Shown: positions 3,386 to 40,373 of the stretch, in pieces
Position numbering within the stretch: the first letter of the stretch is position 1
Layout: each line of letters begins with the position of its first letter
Assembly (NCBI GenBank): GCA_949296375.1
Contig: CASFQX010000025.1
Span: 1 to 41,829 of the forward strand
Source of the DNA: an uncultured Olsenella sp.
GTDB lineage: Bacteria; Actinomycetota; Coriobacteriia; Coriobacteriales; Atopobiaceae
Direction of reading: 5' to 3'
DNA length: 41,829 bases
Made by a program: the position numbers and the translations under genes
The notes under the pieces: generated by a model
What the model was told of the DNA's origin: nothing
The model's input: the letters and a program-made list of their open reading frames with translations, nothing else
Databases searched by the model: none

Positions 3386-3819
3386 TCCTCCGGGCGCGTC
3401 CCGCGTCTGGGGATTCGCTCTTCTCGGCAGATTGTCCGATTCGTCGTCCGAGAATCCGTTCTTCTCGGCAAAGCGCTCGATTCGTTGTCCGAGAATCCGT
3501 TCTTCTCGGCGCTCCGACGTGAACGCCGGTCGTCCAGGGCGCTATGGAGGTGACGTTTTCCCAGTTGGCACTGACGGGCGCGTCGCCCTTCTCGTTCCAG
3601 TACGCTGAAAACGGGGCTTTCGACTGGCCGTTCTGCCGAGAAGTGACATTTCTGAGACGTCAACCTGCCTTCATTGCCGAGATGCCCAAGTAATTAGGCG
3701 CACCGACATACCTTCATCCGTGAGTTTTGCGAAGCAAACTGGTTGAGCGGGGAGTGAGGGCCGGCACGCTGACGTCGCATGTGCGAAGATGTCATATGAG
3801 ATTCGAAGGAGGGTGTCTC
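3386..3819. other. Intergenic region with 41-bp-spaced repeats, before coaE
   Basis: These 434 bases between the ABC operon and coaE contain no credible gene. From about 3412 to 3700 they hold a degenerate array with 41-bp spacing, listed separately. The remaining part, 3700-3819, contains only the coaE SD site and no clear promoter. No U-tract terminator for the ABC operon is visible. Confidence 0.7.
3420..3700. repeat. Repeat array 1: 41-bp period, forward then inverted units
   Basis: TTCTCGGC occurs at 3421, 3462 and 3503, exactly 41 bp apart. The 33-bp stretches 3437-3469 and 3478-3510 differ at one base only. Further on the motif is seen in the opposite orientation, GCCGAGAA at 3635 and GCCGAGAT at 3676, again 41 bp apart. 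Flanking bases of the inverted units partly match the forward unit in the same phase. The units are more decayed than in the other two arrays of this window. There is no cas gene and too little variable sequence for a CRISPR. Confidence 0.7.
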
Positions 3820-32446: not shown

Positions 32447-34382
32447 GTATCGCCCAGACATCGACCCTCAGCTGGACGACCACCTCGCCCTTCTCGCAGA
32501 GCGTGTCTCCCAGGTGCCAACCGAGCCCGGCTGCTACCTGTGGAAGGACGCCAAGGGCGAGGTCGTCTACGTCGGAAAGGCCAAGAGTCTGCGCGCCCGC
32601 ATGCGCCAGTACGTGACGCTCTCGGACGAGCGCGAGAAGATCCCGCTCATGATGCAGGTGGTGCGCGACTTCGACTACGTGGTCGTGGGCTCCGAGCACG
32701 AGGCGCTCGTGCTGGAGCGCAACCTCATTGCCCAGTACCACCCGTACTTCAACGTGGACTACAAGGACGACAAGAGCTACCCCTTCATCGCCATCACCGA
32801 GTCCGACGTCTTTCCCGCCATCAAGTACACGCGCGAGAAGCACCGCAAGGGCACGCGCTACTTTGGCCCCTACACCGACGCCCGCGCCGCGCGCGAGACG
32901 ATCGACACCCTGCGCAAGGTAATTCCCATCTGTGTGGCCACCTGCGCGGAGTGGAAGCGCGCCAAGCGCCTGCTCGAGCGCGACCCCTCGCAGGCTGCCG
33001 TGGCCAACATGATGCTTGCCGAGCGCTGTCGCCCGTGCTTTGACTACCACGTGGGGCGAGGCCCCGGCGTGTGCGCGGGCATGATCGACACCGTGGAGTA
33101 TGCGCATCACGTGCGCCAGGTGGAGGATTTTCTCAGGGGCAAGCGCTCCGCCGTGGTGGGGGAGCTCACCGATCAGATGCGCGAGGCTGCGGCCAATCTG
33201 GACTTCGAGCGGGCGGGACGCCTCAAGGCTCGCCTCGACGGCCTGGACGCACTCGACGACCGTCAGCAGGTGGTCTTCTCGTCCAACGTGAGCGCGGATC
33301 TGATCGGTGTCTATCGTGAGGAGACGATAAGCTGCGCCTGCGTCTTCGTGGTGCGCGAGGGTCGCACGGTCCGCTCGGTGGAGTTCATCCTGGACAAGGG
33401 TCTCGACGTGGGCGCCGATGAGCTGGTGGGCGGCTTTCTCAAGCGCTACTACGACGAGACGGCGGACGTTCCCGCCGAGGTGGACCTAGACGCAGACCTT
33501 CCAGACGCGGAGGTGCTCGCGGGCTGGCTCTCCGAGAAGCGCGGGCATGCCGTCCGCCTGAGGCGCCCGCAGCGCGGCGAGAAGCGCCGTCTGCTCGACA
33601 TGGCAACAGCAAACGCGCGCCACGCCCTGATGCGCTACATGGTGAAGACCGGCTATGCCGACGAGCGCACCAACCAGGCGCTGCTGCAGCTGGAGAGCGC
33701 ACTTGCGCTGGACGCGCCGCCGATGCGCATCGAGTGCTTCGACATCTCCACGCTGCACGGTCACTTCACCGTGGCGTCGATGGTGGTCTTCACCAACGGG
33801 CGGCCGGACAAGTCGCAGTACCGGCGCTTCAAGATCCAGACGCCGCTCACCGAGGCGAACGACTTCGTGTCAATGTCCGAGGTGCTGGGAAGGCGCTACG
33901 CGCCCGAGCGCATGGCCGACGAGCGCTTTGGGTCCCGCCCCGACCTTCTCGTTGTTGATGGCGGAAAGCCGCAGCTCACGGCTGCTATGGCACAGCTCGA
34001 GGAGCTGGGGCTGGACATTCCGGTCTGCGGTCTTGCCAAGTCCGACGAGGAGATCTTCGTGCCCTGGGACGAGACGCCGGTCGTGCTGCCGAGCGGCTCG
34101 CCCTCGCTCTACCTGATCAAGCAGGTGCGTGACGAGTCCCACCGCTTTGCGATCACCTTCCACCGCGAGCTGCGCGACAAGGCGATGACGCGCTCGGCGA
34201 TCGACGACGTGCCGGGCGTGGGGCCCAAGCGGCGCCGTGCGCTGATGAAGCACTTTGGCTCGATGAAGCGGCTGCGCTCCGCAAGCGAGGAGGAGATCGC
34301 CGCCACGCCGGGCGTGCCTGCCGAGGTGGCACATGCCGTGTGGCAGGCGCTTCGTGCCGCCGAGGAGCTTGCGGGGGAGTAG
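32439..34382 (+). CDS. uvrC: Excinuclease ABC subunit C
   Basis: UvrC makes both incisions in nucleotide excision repair. The 647-residue protein has the N-terminal GIY-YIG nuclease (PGCYLWKDAKGEVVYVGKA, the 3' incision site), a Cys-containing middle part CRPCFDYHVGRGPGVCAG, the UVR motif contacting UvrB (LTDQMREAAANLDFERAGRL), the RNase-H-like 5' nuclease (IECFDISTLHG, LLVVDGGKPQL, HRFAITFHR) and C-terminal helix-hairpin-helix repeats (DVPGVGPKRRRALMKHFGS). The ATG at 32439 lies inside the 3' end of the ATP-grasp gene, an 8-base overlap, so the two are on one mRNA and probably coupled. No LexA box is seen for this unit. A 41-bp repeat array begins 17 bases after the stop. Confidence 0.97.
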   Translation: MSRYRPDIDPQLDDHLALLAERVSQVPTEPGCYLWKDAKGEVVYVGKAKSLRARMRQYVTLSDEREKIPLMMQVVRDFDYVVVGSEHEALVLERNLIAQYHPYFNVDYKDDKSYPFIAITESDVFPAIKYTREKHRKGTRYFGPYTDARAARETIDTLRKVIPICVATCAEWKRAKRLLERDPSQAAVANMMLAERCRPCFDYHVGRGPGVCAGMIDTVEYAHHVRQVEDFLRGKRSAVVGELTDQMREAAANLDFERAGRLKARLDGLDALDDRQQVVFSSNVSADLIGVYREETISCACVFVVREGRTVRSVEFILDKGLDVGADELVGGFLKRYYDETADVPAEVDLDADLPDAEVLAGWLSEKRGHAVRLRRPQRGEKRRLLDMATANARHALMRYMVKTGYADERTNQALLQLESALALDAPPMRIECFDISTLHGHFTVASMVVFTNGRPDKSQYRRFKIQTPLTEANDFVSMSEVLGRRYAPERMADERFGSRPDLLVVDGGKPQLTAAMAQLEELGLDIPVCGLAKSDEEIFVPWDETPVVLPSGSPSLYLIKQVRDESHRFAITFHRELRDKAMTRSAIDDVPGVGPKRRRALMKHFGSMKRLRSASEEEIAATPGVPAEVAHAVWQALRAAEELAGE

Positions 34383-34399: not shown

Positions 34400-34606
34400 C
34401 GCTTGACGAAAGCAGGCTTGTCTCAGCTTCGGTGCGGCATCGCTTGACGGATCGAGGCTCGTCTTAGCTCTGCGTCGAAATAACTTGACGGATCGAGGCT
34501 CGTCTCAGCCCAAAGTGCGTCTAAGGCTGAGACGAGCCGTGCTTCGTCAAGCGATAAGAACCGTGGGCTGAGACGAGCCTCGATTCAACGAGCCCCCTGC
34601 TGTTGT
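34400..34606. repeat. Repeat array 2: five units, 41-bp period
   Basis: A 29-bp core begins at 34400, 34441 and 34482 (exactly 41 bp apart) with CTTGACG and GGCTCGTCTCAGC as the clearest parts. The inverted form starts at 34525 and 34566, also 41 bp apart, with GGCTGAGACGAGCC. About 12 variable bases separate the cores. Forward and inverted units can pair into long stems. The array fills the space between uvrC and the fruR control region; the CTTCTCG word lies at its left edge (34395). Confidence 0.88.
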
Positions 34607-36488: not shown

Positions 36489-36646
36489 GAACTCGCGGCG
36501 GACCTTAACGGCAGGGTTCCGGGGCTACCAACCAAGCATAGCGTTCTTCTCGCAACTCCAAGACCTCGGGGCTTGGGGTCGGGTGAGGCACATGCAAAGC
36601 ATCAGCAATGGGCGGCGGTGGCTGCCTTGGGGAGAAAGGACAGGAT

Positions 36647-38623
36647 ATGAGAATCACGGATCTGCTCAAACCTGAGTCAATCGGAATCGGGGGTGCGCCA
36701 AAGAGCAAGGACGAGGCTATCGACGAGCTCGTCGAACTCATGGCGAAGGGCGGCAACGTGCGCGACAAGGCGGGCTATGCCGCGGCCGTTCGCGAGCGCG
36801 AGGCGCAGTTCTCCACGGGCCTCGGCGACGGCATCGCCATCCCGCACGCCAAGACGGCCGCCGTCTCCGCGCCCGGCCTCGCGGCCATGACGGTGCCCGC
36901 GGGCGTGGACTACCAGTCGCTCGACGGCGAGCCGGCAACGCTGCTCTTTCTCATCGCGGCGCCGGACGGCGAGGCAAACACGCACCTCGAGGTGCTGAGC
37001 CGCCTCTCCACGCTGCTCCTGGACGCCGACTTCTGCGCGGCGCTGCGTGCGGCCAAGACGCCCGAGGAGTTCCGCGCGCTCGTTGACGCCGAGGAGGACG
37101 TCCACCTCGCCGAGGAGGAGGCCAAGGCGGCCGGCGCCGCCGCGCGTGACGCCGCGGGATACGACGTTCTTGCCATCACGGCCTGCCCCACGGGCATCGC
37201 CCACACCTACATGGCCGCCGAGGCGCTCGAGAAGCGCGCGGCGGAGCGCGGGATCAAGATCAAGGTGGAGACCCAGGGCTCCGGTGGCGCCAAGAACGTC
37301 ATCACCGCCCACGACGTGGCCGGCGCCAAGGGCGTGATCATCGCGGCCGACAAGAACATCGACCTCGCCCGCTTTGACGGCATGCCGGTCTACAGCTGCT
37401 CCGTCACGCGCGGCATCAACGAGCCCGACGCGCTTCTCGACGTCATCATGGACGGCAAGGCCGGCGTGTACCATCACGCAGGCGGCTCCTCCGAGCCCGC
37501 CTCCGCGGGTGCCGAGAAGGAGGGCATCGGCCACAAGGTCTACAAGGACCTCATGAACGGCGTCTCGCACATGCTGCCGTTCGTCATCGGCGGCGGCATC
37601 CTCACCGCCATCGCGTTCCTCATCGACCAGCCCGGCCTCGGCACCGCCGCCTACGGCTCCTCGATCCCGGCGGCCGCGCTCTTCAAGACCATCGGCAACG
37701 AGGCATTTGGCTTCATGCTGCCGATCCTCTCCGGCTACATCGCCATGTCGATCGCGGACAGGCCCGGTCTCGCGCCCGGCTTCGTGGGCGGCATCTTTGC
37801 CAAGGTGGGCTATGACTTTGCCTACCTCGGAACGCTCGACACCTCCGGCCTCGTCTCCGGCGGCTTCATCGCGGCGCTCTTCGCGGGCTTTGCGGCAGGC
37901 TACATGACGCTTGGCATCGAGCGCCTCTGCGACAGGCTCCCTGCCTCGCTCGAGGGCATCAAGCCGATGCTCATCTACCCGATCCTCGGCGTGCTCGCCA
38001 TCGGCGTGGTCATGCTCGCCCTGAACCCGCTCTTCGCGCTCATCAACACCGGCCTCAACAACTTCCTGCGCGGCCTCGGCACGAGCAACATCGTCCTTCT
38101 CGGCCTGGTCCTTGGCGGCATGATGTCCGTTGACATGGGCGGCCCCTTCAACAAGGCGGCGTACGTCTTTGGTACCGCGGCCCTTGACCCCGCGAGCGGC
38201 CTCGGTACCACCGGCCAGATCATGATGGCCTCCGTCATGGTCGGCGGCATGGTCCCGCCCCTGGCCATCGCCCTCTCTACCACCTTCTTCAAGAACCGCT
38301 GGACCAAGACGGACCGCAGCGCCGGTATCGTGAACTACATCATGGGCCTCTCCTTCATCACCGAGGGTGCGATCCCCTTTGCCGCGGCCGACCCCGGTCA
38401 CGTGCTCCCGTCCTGCATCGTTGGCGCCGCGATCGCCGGCGGCCTCTCCGCCTTCTTCGGCTGCACCAGCCCCGCCCCGCACGGCGGAGCCTGGGTGACC
38501 CCGGTCATCGGCAATGGCATCATGTGGCTGCTCGCCGCGCTGATCGGCGCCGTGGTGGCCTGCCTGATCCTCTCCCTCTGGAAGAAGCCGCTTCCTCCCG
38601 AGGAGTCCGGTCTCAGCAAGTAG
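36647..38623 (+). CDS. fruA: PTS fructose transporter, EIIABC
   Basis: A 658-residue single-chain PTS permease that imports fructose and phosphorylates it to fructose 1-phosphate. Domains run A-B-C. EIIA (about 1-150) carries the phosphorylated H67 in IAIPHAK. EIIB (about 170-270) has C180 in ITACPTGIAHTYMAAEALE. EIIC (about 300-650) is a polytopic membrane part beginning GVSHMLPFVIGGGILTAI, with MSVDMGGPFNKAAYVFG and EGAIPFAAADP typical of the fructose family. ATG 36647 has AAAGGA six bases upstream; the open frame to 36608 has no ribosome site. A perfect terminator follows. The partner kinase fruK and regulator fruR are upstream; HPr and EI must be encoded elsewhere. Confidence 0.96.
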   Translation: MRITDLLKPESIGIGGAPKSKDEAIDELVELMAKGGNVRDKAGYAAAVREREAQFSTGLGDGIAIPHAKTAAVSAPGLAAMTVPAGVDYQSLDGEPATLLFLIAAPDGEANTHLEVLSRLSTLLLDADFCAALRAAKTPEEFRALVDAEEDVHLAEEEAKAAGAAARDAAGYDVLAITACPTGIAHTYMAAEALEKRAAERGIKIKVETQGSGGAKNVITAHDVAGAKGVIIAADKNIDLARFDGMPVYSCSVTRGINEPDALLDVIMDGKAGVYHHAGGSSEPASAGAEKEGIGHKVYKDLMNGVSHMLPFVIGGGILTAIAFLIDQPGLGTAAYGSSIPAAALFKTIGNEAFGFMLPILSGYIAMSIADRPGLAPGFVGGIFAKVGYDFAYLGTLDTSGLVSGGFIAALFAGFAAGYMTLGIERLCDRLPASLEGIKPMLIYPILGVLAIGVVMLALNPLFALINTGLNNFLRGLGTSNIVLLGLVLGGMMSVDMGGPFNKAAYVFGTAALDPASGLGTTGQIMMASVMVGGMVPPLAIALSTTFFKNRWTKTDRSAGIVNYIMGLSFITEGAIPFAAADPGHVLPSCIVGAAIAGGLSAFFGCTSPAPHGGAWVTPVIGNGIMWLLAALIGAVVACLILSLWKKPLPPEESGLSK

Positions 38624-38646: not shown

Positions 38647-38685
38647 GGCGCCGAGCCCTATCCTCCGGGGCTCGGCGCCCTTTTT
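38647..38685 (+). terminator. Rho-independent terminator after fruA
   Basis: GGCGCCGAGCCC (38647-38658) and GGGCTCGGCGCC (38668-38679) form a perfect 12-bp stem with a nine-base loop, followed by C and five T residues. Confidence 0.95.
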
Positions 38686-38721
38686 GTGTTTGCGCGCTGG
38701 TGGGCTTAGTAAGTGCGCTGG

Positions 38722-39363
38722 TTGGAGGGCTTCTCGCCTTTGTCGCTTAACAATGGTCGCGATTGGAGGGCGGAGCGTTCCGGGTGCTTACGGATTGCCA
38801 CGATTGGAGGGTCGGGCGGCGGGAATGCTTAGAGATTCGCGCCATCGGAGACCTGGCGGTCGTAAGAATCGAGAAGAACTCTCCAGCGGCGGCAGACCTT
38901 AAGCGCTTGCTGCCCGCGACCCTCCAACGGGTGCGTATCCTAAGCGCTTGCTGCCCGCGACCCTCCAACGGCGGCTCAGGCTAAGCGCCTACATCCATCA
39001 GCGCTCCAATAGCGACATAACCTAAGCGCTTAAGATTTCCCCACTGGGGACCGGTGCCGGCATAAACTCGGAGAGTCATGCCATTGGAGTTTTTGTTCGC
39101 CAAGCGCTTAATGATTGTCTCAATCGGAGGGCTTTGTGCGACAAGTGGTTAGCGATTTGCGCCATTGGAGGGTGGGGCGCATCTAGTGATTAAGAATTGC
39201 ACCGATCGGAAGGGTCCGCTCCAAAAATGCTTAGCGATTTGCGCCATTGGAGACCCGGCAATTGCGAGGATCGAGAAGAACCCTCCAGCGGTGGCATTCC
39301 CTAAGCGCTTGCTGCCCGCGGCCCTCCAACGGCGGTAAACCTTAAGCGTCCGCGACCCGACGA
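38722..39363. repeat. Repeat array 3: about 14 units of 41 bp in alternating blocks
   Basis: TTGGAGG-type boxes start at 38722, 38763, 38804 and 38845 (each 41 bp). The inverted box CTCCAACGG/CTCCAGCGG then recurs in units starting at 38880, 38921, 38962 and 39003 (each 41 bp). A second forward block follows at 39084, 39124, 39165, 39206 and 39247 (40 or 41 bp), and a second inverted block at 39282 and 39323. A second conserved element, GCTTAGCGATTTGCGCC or inverted TAAGCGCTTGCTGCCCGCG, occurs in most units. Both forward-to-inverted junctions contain ATCGAGAAGAAC. The array fills almost all of the 820 bases between fruA and rapZ; no gene is present. Confidence 0.9.
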
Positions 39364-39443: not shown

Positions 39444-40373
39444 ATGAGCGAGGAGAGCGGCCAGAAGATGCGCGTGGCGGAGGCCGCCGAGCGCGTGCCC
39501 GACGTGGTGGTGATCACGGGCATGAGCGGCTCGGGCCGTACCCAGGCCCTGCACGTCTTCGAGGACATGGGCTACTACTGCATCGATAACCTCCCGCCGC
39601 GCCTGCTGCTGCAGCTTGCGGAGCTCGTGGGCATCAACACGGGCGTGGGTCGCCACCTTGCCGTGACCTGCGACCTGCGCAGCCAGGGTCTCTTCGACGA
39701 GCTTGCCGACTCCGTCACCCAGCTCCGCGAGCATGAGATCACCTGCCGCGTGGTGTTTCTCGACACCTCGGACGAGGTCCTCATGCGCCGCTACGACGAG
39801 AACCGTCGTCGCCATCCGCTCGCCATGTCCGGCGAGTCCCTGGACAGGACCATCGCCCGCGAGCGCGCTCAGCTCGGGGTCATCCGCGACGCCGCCGACC
39901 TCGTCATAGACACGAGTCGCCTGCGCACGCGCGACCTCCGCACCCGCCTGCGCCGAGCCTTCTCCGAGCTCACCGACCAGCAGCTCATGGAGGTCTCGGT
40001 CTTCTCCTTTGGCTTCAAGCATGGCATGCCGGTCGAGGCGGACCTCATGATAGACGTCCGCTTTCTGCCCAACCCCTTCTACGACCCCGTCATGCGCACG
40101 CTCACGGGCAAGGACCAGCTCGTGTCTGACTTCGTGCTCAACAACCCCACCACCGTGAAGTTCATGGATGCGTGGCAGCGCCTGCTCGACGTTGCGATGC
40201 CGGGCTACGTTGCCGAGGGAAAGAGCCACCTCTCCATTGCCGTGGGCTGCACGGGGGGCCAGCACAGGAGCGTCGCCATCGCCGAGGCCACGGCGACCTA
40301 TCTCGAGAAGAGCGGCTACCACGTGAGCGTCTCCCACCGCGACCTGGCCCTCGCCAACGTGAGGACGAGCTAG
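39444..40373 (+). CDS. rapZ: RapZ/YvcJ nucleotide-binding protein
   Basis: RapZ is a P-loop protein that binds nucleotides and, in enterobacteria, steers small-RNA control of glucosamine-6-phosphate synthase; in Gram-positives its role is less clear. The 309-residue protein has a P-loop GMSGSGRT (residues 26-33) in which arginine replaces the usual lysine, as in other actinobacterial members. Then come GYYCIDNLPPRLL, VFLDTSDEVLMRRYDENRRR cut at RRYDENRRRHPL, SFGFKHGMPVEADLMIDVRF, and the C-terminal CTGGQHRSVAIAE. ATG 39444 has AAGGGAG upstream. whiA begins two bases after its stop; the yvcK gene that usually lies between them is missing here. Confidence 0.95.
   Translation: MSEESGQKMRVAEAAERVPDVVVITGMSGSGRTQALHVFEDMGYYCIDNLPPRLLLQLAELVGINTGVGRHLAVTCDLRSQGLFDELADSVTQLREHEITCRVVFLDTSDEVLMRRYDENRRRHPLAMSGESLDRTIARERAQLGVIRDAADLVIDTSRLRTRDLRTRLRRAFSELTDQQLMEVSVFSFGFKHGMPVEADLMIDVRFLPNPFYDPVMRTLTGKDQLVSDFVLNNPTTVKFMDAWQRLLDVAMPGYVAEGKSHLSIAVGCTGGQHRSVAIAEATATYLEKSGYHVSVSHRDLALANVRTS

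Follow-up and report, generated by a model that had tools for sequence, protein, structure and literature searches.

Helically phased, mirrored intergenic arrays in gut Coriobacteria and a matched family of nuclease-like proteins

We analysed a 41,829-nucleotide stretch of DNA (the window) from a draft assembly of 1.88 Mb in 221 contigs (87.6% complete), which relatives of its rapZ gene, retrieved by tblastn, place in the Thermophilibacter/Olsenella group of the Atopobiaceae. The array of short repeats between fruA and rapZ is one member, denoted family A, of a genome-wide class of intergenic arrays found in dozens of places. It is probably a row of asymmetric duplex recognition sites of ~25 bp, set four helical turns apart and mirrored about a centre, which a cognate AbiEi/Vsr-like protein would read by binding and might cleave. 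Together, the arrays and this matched nuclease-like protein point to an undescribed DNA-protein system; a search of the open-access literature turned up no paper describing arrays of this kind, the protein family itself or dispersed repeats that accompany Vsr-like proteins.

The upstream gene, designated fruA in the preliminary description (36608-38623, + strand, 671 aa in the ORF listing), is followed by an intrinsic terminator (38647-38690, +) made of a 12-bp perfect inverted repeat (38647-38658/38668-38679) and then CTTTTTGTG. The family A array (38703-39348) begins just past this terminator, and the promoter region of rapZ, an ORF of 309 aa likewise named in that description (39444-40373, +), comes next. 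Autocorrelation of 38700-39363 gave a top lag of 41 (0.487 identity) and a second of 82 (0.420), compared with 0.343 for the maximum over all lags in 500 Markov shuffles, which confirms the 41-bp period first described. Scanning with the family profile placed 14 units with 27-bp cores here, close to the number initially estimated, in two dyads (+4 -4, +4 -2) that preserve the reported order of forward, inverted, forward and inverted blocks. Plus units are positioned by their left and minus units by their right coordinate. The first forward block (38703-38852, +) comprises 38703-38729, 38744-38770, 38785-38811 and 38826-38852, and the first inverted block (38879-39028, -) comprises 38879-38905, 38920-38946, 38961-38987 and 39002-39028. 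The second forward block (39105-39254, +) is formed by 39105-39131, 39146-39172, 39187-39213 and 39228-39254, followed by a shorter inverted block (39281-39348, -) with units at 39281-39307 and 39322-39348. A single 40-bp step had been reported; it was not confirmed, because 10 of 10 same-strand steps are exactly 41 bp in the profile register.

Both forward-to-inverted junctions, previously noticed as alike, do share their design: the first dyad centre (38853-38878, delimited from the sequence) and the second (39255-39280, from sequence and profile scan) have the same 79-bp geometry, contain ATCGAGAAGAAC and have a CGAGAAG motif in common. The two dyads are direct copies at an offset of 402 bp (211 nt aligned at 73%). 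The conserved core of family A reads GCTTA-N10-C-NN-TYGGAGG, and the LacI-like palindrome earlier ascribed to the inverted units, AAGCGCTT, proved to be TAAGC with adjoining bases and not a conserved palindrome. Of 20 family A dyad centres, 17 contain YTTCTCG on one strand or the other, compared with 5% of random 30-mers; plain octamer enrichment isolated no boundary signal. The motif, as YTTCTCG(CC), also occurs in arrays beside several other paralogs of the protein described below, and the sampled genomes G007 and G001 are enriched in TTCTCGCC.

Some relatives carry the same repeats at the same place. Orthologous fruA-rapZ arrays in genome G011 (L125, 75% identity) and at L045 keep an identical layout, and no clean empty site was found at fruA-rapZ across other species, because these have different repeats or different neighbours there. 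Units like those of the focal array recur at many other intergenic positions of the genome, the focal array being one of dozens, and the window itself contains two further families. Family B (34400-34594; +3 -2) has the architecture of family A with a different core (CGCTTGACGAAACGGGGCTCGTCTCAGC), and family C (about 3419-3510), detected by TRF, has a 41-bp step and relatives elsewhere; judging by unit likeness, its cognate gene is likely the one at G000:C31 (L315). The family B array sits right behind the stop codon of a gene ending at 34382.

Using exact patterns on whole genomes, we counted 54 family A sites in G000, 107 in G001, 83 in G011, 4 in G030 and 0 in 27 further genomes of the genus (reversed control, 0-2). 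Family B sites numbered 70 in G000, 151 in G001 and 74 in G011, with a few in G004 and G025 and none in the remaining genomes of the genus set. The family A profile found 209 units in 599 kb, compared with 0 in 400 kb of the sister species G007; because the stretches of G000 and G001 were mostly chosen for A or B matches, their array density does not represent the genome as a whole. Other species of the genus carry family D (core CGTCCCGGAATCNNCGNNNTTC), with at least 80 sites in G026 and at least 70 in G004 (reversed control, 0), in the same architecture as A and B. Across 31 Thermophilibacter genomes, cores turn over and the architecture persists. As judged from gene calls made by a simple codon-composition rule, which also served for the random-gene control below, arrays mostly follow the stop codon or terminator of a gene and precede the promoter of its neighbour, with few between divergent genes. 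In G001:C4 (L200, 9811-10925), the inverted block of one family A array is interrupted by a gene for an IS481-family transposase, the only IS481 gene next to A arrays. We read it as an insertion, because it lies inside that block and is absent from the orthologous G000 array (L223); by the same absence, IS481 was rejected as the cause of the A arrays.

In nearly every array with two orientations, a forward block precedes an inverted block, with mirror symmetry about a dyad. Conserved positions make up bipartite sites of 25 bp (in family B, CTTGAC-N7-GGCTCGTCTCAG), separated by spacers of 13-14 nt that are near random in sequence when different loci are compared. Same-strand steps in family A were 41 bp in 151 cases, 40 in 3, 42 in 2 and 51-52 in 3, with centre distances of 79 (17 cases), 69 (2), 89 and 110 bp; in family B, the steps were 41 (40 cases) and 42 bp (22) and the centre distances 71 (17) and 72 bp (1). 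The profile fit of family B is highest next to the dyad and falls outward (39.4, 35.7, 31.6 and 28.9 bits), and outermost units are frequently half sites.

Departures from the usual spacing are multiples of ~10.3 bp. Among the sites listed for family D, same-strand steps were 31, 41, 72, 82, 103 and 123 bp, and centre distances were 48, 58, 68, 69, 89, 99, 110, 120, 130, 141, 151, 161, 182, 192, 223, 233 and 265 bp, of which the longer may conceal degenerate units missed by the strict pattern. When each distinct distance was counted once, the family D centres (48 to 265 bp) fitted a 10.32-bp period with a resultant R of 0.98, a value reached by 0 of 3,000 random sets. With families A and D pooled, 43 spacings departed from the 41-bp lattice by more than 1 bp, and 41 of these fell on whole helical turns. 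The binomial figure for this count overstates the case, because related arrays enter it as if independent, and the distinct-value test is safer. These findings support the early suggestions that all units lie on the same side of the DNA and that they form a platform for protein binding, the latter being the most likely reading.

Neutral tandem repeats would explain the period differently, with 41 bp an ancestral unit length inherited as copies spread and drift. Many neighbouring units are nearly identical, which shows local duplication to be active, and orthologous arrays retain the 41- or 42-bp step, as this account would have it. However, spacer length is kept despite near-random spacer sequence, the cores are kept as well, one step is common to different cores, and lengths change by helical turns, giving the comb of distances observed. 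We therefore consider neutral origin very unlikely.

Between orthologous arrays of different species, cores were 93.9% identical, spacers 72.4% and flanks 81%, the core columns having been picked by conservation over all units, which favours the core somewhat. Alignment gaps inside these arrays were mostly 41, 42, 82, 83 or 123. Units are therefore gained and lost whole, with cores and spacing held while spacers drift, and the cores are under purifying constraint.

The preliminary description had also allowed for a structured RNA. On paper, the forward blocks could pair with the inverted ones, to which they are complementary, as a terminator or 3' end stabiliser. However, plus/minus likeness at variable positions was not higher within an array than between arrays (0.415 versus 0.450 for family B; 0.477 versus 0.501 for family A), and no base-pair covariation was found within units, which argues for double-stranded recognition and against RNA stems or cruciforms. 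The conserved halves of family A, GCTTA and TTGGAGG, are not complementary and show no Watson-Crick covariation; a weak palindrome is present in family B (-4.5 kcal/mol when folded). Rfam gave 0 matches in the window at gathering score, weak matches inside the focal array were at chance level, and the array begins only after an intrinsic terminator. The RNA reading thus has next to no probability.

The double-stranded sites have a candidate reader. Two A arrays flank a gene for a 371-aa protein in G000:C36 (941-2053) and in G001:C7, where the protein is 86% identical, and a relative in G011:C1 has A sites on either side. Genomes of the genus each have 6 to 15 copies of this paralogous family, which also extends through much of the order, and further paralogs stand among further arrays: the one at G001:C22:68111 is flanked by B arrays (+5 -4 upstream, +3 -5 downstream), that at G004:C6:58850 has D units on both sides, and family E arrays flank paralogs on both sides in G026 and G004. 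Still other paralogs are accompanied by a unit of their own, repeated about every 31, 40, 53 or 62 bp. We aligned the 450 bp upstream of each gene to the 450 bp downstream and found that 21 of 39 distinct close paralog loci scored above the 99th percentile of random genes, compared with 7 of 715 random genes (p = 2e-24). The remaining 18 failed this test, some through contig ends or degenerate arrays, and divergent paralogs mostly failed.

In a maximum-likelihood tree, proteins with the same unit in different species are sisters. Likeness of units (picked by hand) correlated with likeness of proteins in a Mantel test (r 0.57, 0/5000), including among pairs under 70% identity (r 0.28, 10/5000). 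The family B cognate is present in G001, and a B-like one in G025; it was not found in the draft assemblies G000 (87.6% complete) and G011 (76%), which have ~70 B sites each. Most of the genomes are drafts, whose assemblies are broken by arrays. Against specificity for a cognate protein, two very similar B arrays likewise flank a Sel1-repeat, zinc-ribbon gene in G000:C93 (L227, 4587-6267). Elsewhere, in G004 (L372; C8:23500-31500), two B-like arrays lie 4.7 kb apart in a species otherwise without B sites, and no gene for a protein of the paralogous family was found in that stretch.

AlphaFold2 gave a confident model of the protein (pLDDT 89.7). Its residues 181-304 align to the catalytic domain of I-Bth0305I (Z 9.8, 2.4 Å, 94 residues) and to Vsr (Z 8.8). 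Residues 1-176 of the whole model align to AbiEi over 118 residues (Z 7.8), and when residues 1-178 were folded alone, AbiEi was again the best match (Z 7.7), with Rv2827c second (Z 5.2); all of these Z scores are moderate, and those of the N-terminal half lie under 8. Foldseek itself returned no significant match. Of 48 members, 14 give a weak match to the Pfam REase family PF18741, at best with E 0.006. Single residues are conserved: E184 in 47/48, D228 in 47/48, H255 in 46/48 and D264 in 40/48, with R267 likewise kept in 46-47/48. The first four fit the EDxHD pattern by order alone. The prediction from this model is a protein that combines an AbiEi-like domain with a nuclease domain like those of Vsr and I-Bth0305I. 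Inverted repeats of 23 bp are the binding sites of AbiEi proteins, and AbiEi itself binds them cooperatively (PMC7319586), which fits the unit size and mirror symmetry of the arrays, though the AbiEi alignment begins at AbiEi residue 67, past the DNA-reading winged helix, and the match is to the C-terminal domain. No DNA-reading helix was identified in the model.

These observations suggest how the arrays might work. Each matched protein would bind its own units, that of G000:C36:941-2053 reading family A, with one protein per four helical turns and all on one DNA face. Assembly could be cooperative and spread outward from the dyad, where the nuclease-fold domain may start the copying that spreads units and dyads, a role like that proposed for RAYTs towards REPs. 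Taking as a parallel the RAYT-REP logic of a repeat with its own protein (PMC2817692), we tentatively propose, as a possibility we hold at less than an even chance, a self-spreading element whose protein loads on phased arrays and nicks or cuts the dyad of a target array, repair from a second array then copying units and whole dyads. Each paralog would in this way create and sustain a dispersed array population of its own, and its specificity would shift along with the arrays.

The arrays' place behind terminators fits tolerance by the cell as well as use, for example in insulation or as a 3'-end roadblock. Gyrase-binding BIMEs are thought to act as transcription roadblocks or topological insulators, and the arrays might similarly be sites at which some other chromosomal protein acts in this way after terminators, the paralog being a bystander or a regulator. 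This would suit both their concentration ahead of the next promoter, rarely between divergent genes, and their retention at orthologous places across species. However, array families track single paralogs, and as families differ between species and several occur per genome, one host protein cannot read them all. A role in host architecture is therefore unlikely to be the explanation.

Dispersed intergenic repeats in both orientations also recall REP/BIME elements mobilised by a RAYT transposase, and RAYT-type genes (PF01797) are present in 40 of 60 relatives. Yet 20 RAYT loci were flanked by other palindromes, with no A or B unit in their flanks, and A units are not hairpins and lack pair covariation. 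With different repeats in its flanks, RAYT was rejected as the cognate of the A and B arrays, and mobilisation of this kind appears highly improbable. The RAYT-type genes of the genus are themselves flanked by their own palindromes of the CAAAAGGGGACAG or GACAAAGGGGTCGTAGCC type (L177-L196), and upstream of one such gene (L178) three palindrome copies recur with a period of ~40 bp.

The arrays with their matched protein nonetheless share much with RAYT-REP/BIME systems, in which a gene is flanked by repeats that are also dispersed between genes, in both orientations and near 3' ends, and in which related proteins have related repeats (PMC2817692). They differ in that the protein is AbiEi-like and Vsr-like and not a Y1 transposase, that family A units are not palindromes, that blocks are mirrored (+n -m) and not alternating, and that spacing is locked to the helical turn. 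AbiEi-family operators, including those of AbiE and Rv2827c, resemble the arrays in their ~23-bp asymmetric sites and inverted pairs, as their proteins appear to resemble the N-terminal half of the fold; antitoxin sites of this family are bound by monomers, and Rv2827c has four (PMC7319586). In contrast to the operators of one promoter, dozens of arrays are spread over the genome here, and the AbiEi winged-helix domain is not matched in the paralogous protein. To I-Bth0305I and Vsr, the likeness lies in the fold of residues 181-304 and in the conserved E, D and H with a nearby D, catalysis here being putative; whereas a homing endonuclease gene lies inside its target, the gene here is flanked by arrays of putative sites.

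The ends of Tn7- and Mu-type transposons carry multiple transposase sites and, like the arrays, present several asymmetric sites in inverted arrangement on two sides; here, however, no terminal repeats or cargo were seen, and the centre is a fixed short gap with a variable number of units on both sides. CRISPR repeats are near-identical, in one orientation and separated by unique spacers of ~25-40 bp, in contrast to diverged units, 13-14-nt spacers and mirrored blocks. The early suggestion of a new repeat class is supported to the extent that no match to a known class was found.

If the proposed system is real, gut Coriobacteria hold several families of paired repeats and proteins per genome, with spacing in whole turns up to 265 bp, and the arrays would preserve, in naturally occurring DNA that can be read directly, the layout of a phased nucleoprotein complex. 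The system would solve the RAYT-REP problem a second time with unrelated components, would suggest what a large uncharacterised protein family may do and would provide natural protein-site pairs for studying changes in DNA specificity.

Other repeats were noted in the course of the analysis. A CRISPR-like array with a 61-bp period, near the start of a contig (G001:C1, 100-1200; L207), looks quite different from the phased arrays. In G007 (L150, L158, L163 and L164), dispersed palindromic units of the ACGCGACTTCCAACGTT type are spaced 62 bp apart, near six helical turns. In Collinsella massiliensis (L080, 5930-6178), a REP-like GGGGACGGGTTC repeat forms a 41-bp tandem with a forward and then an inverted block.
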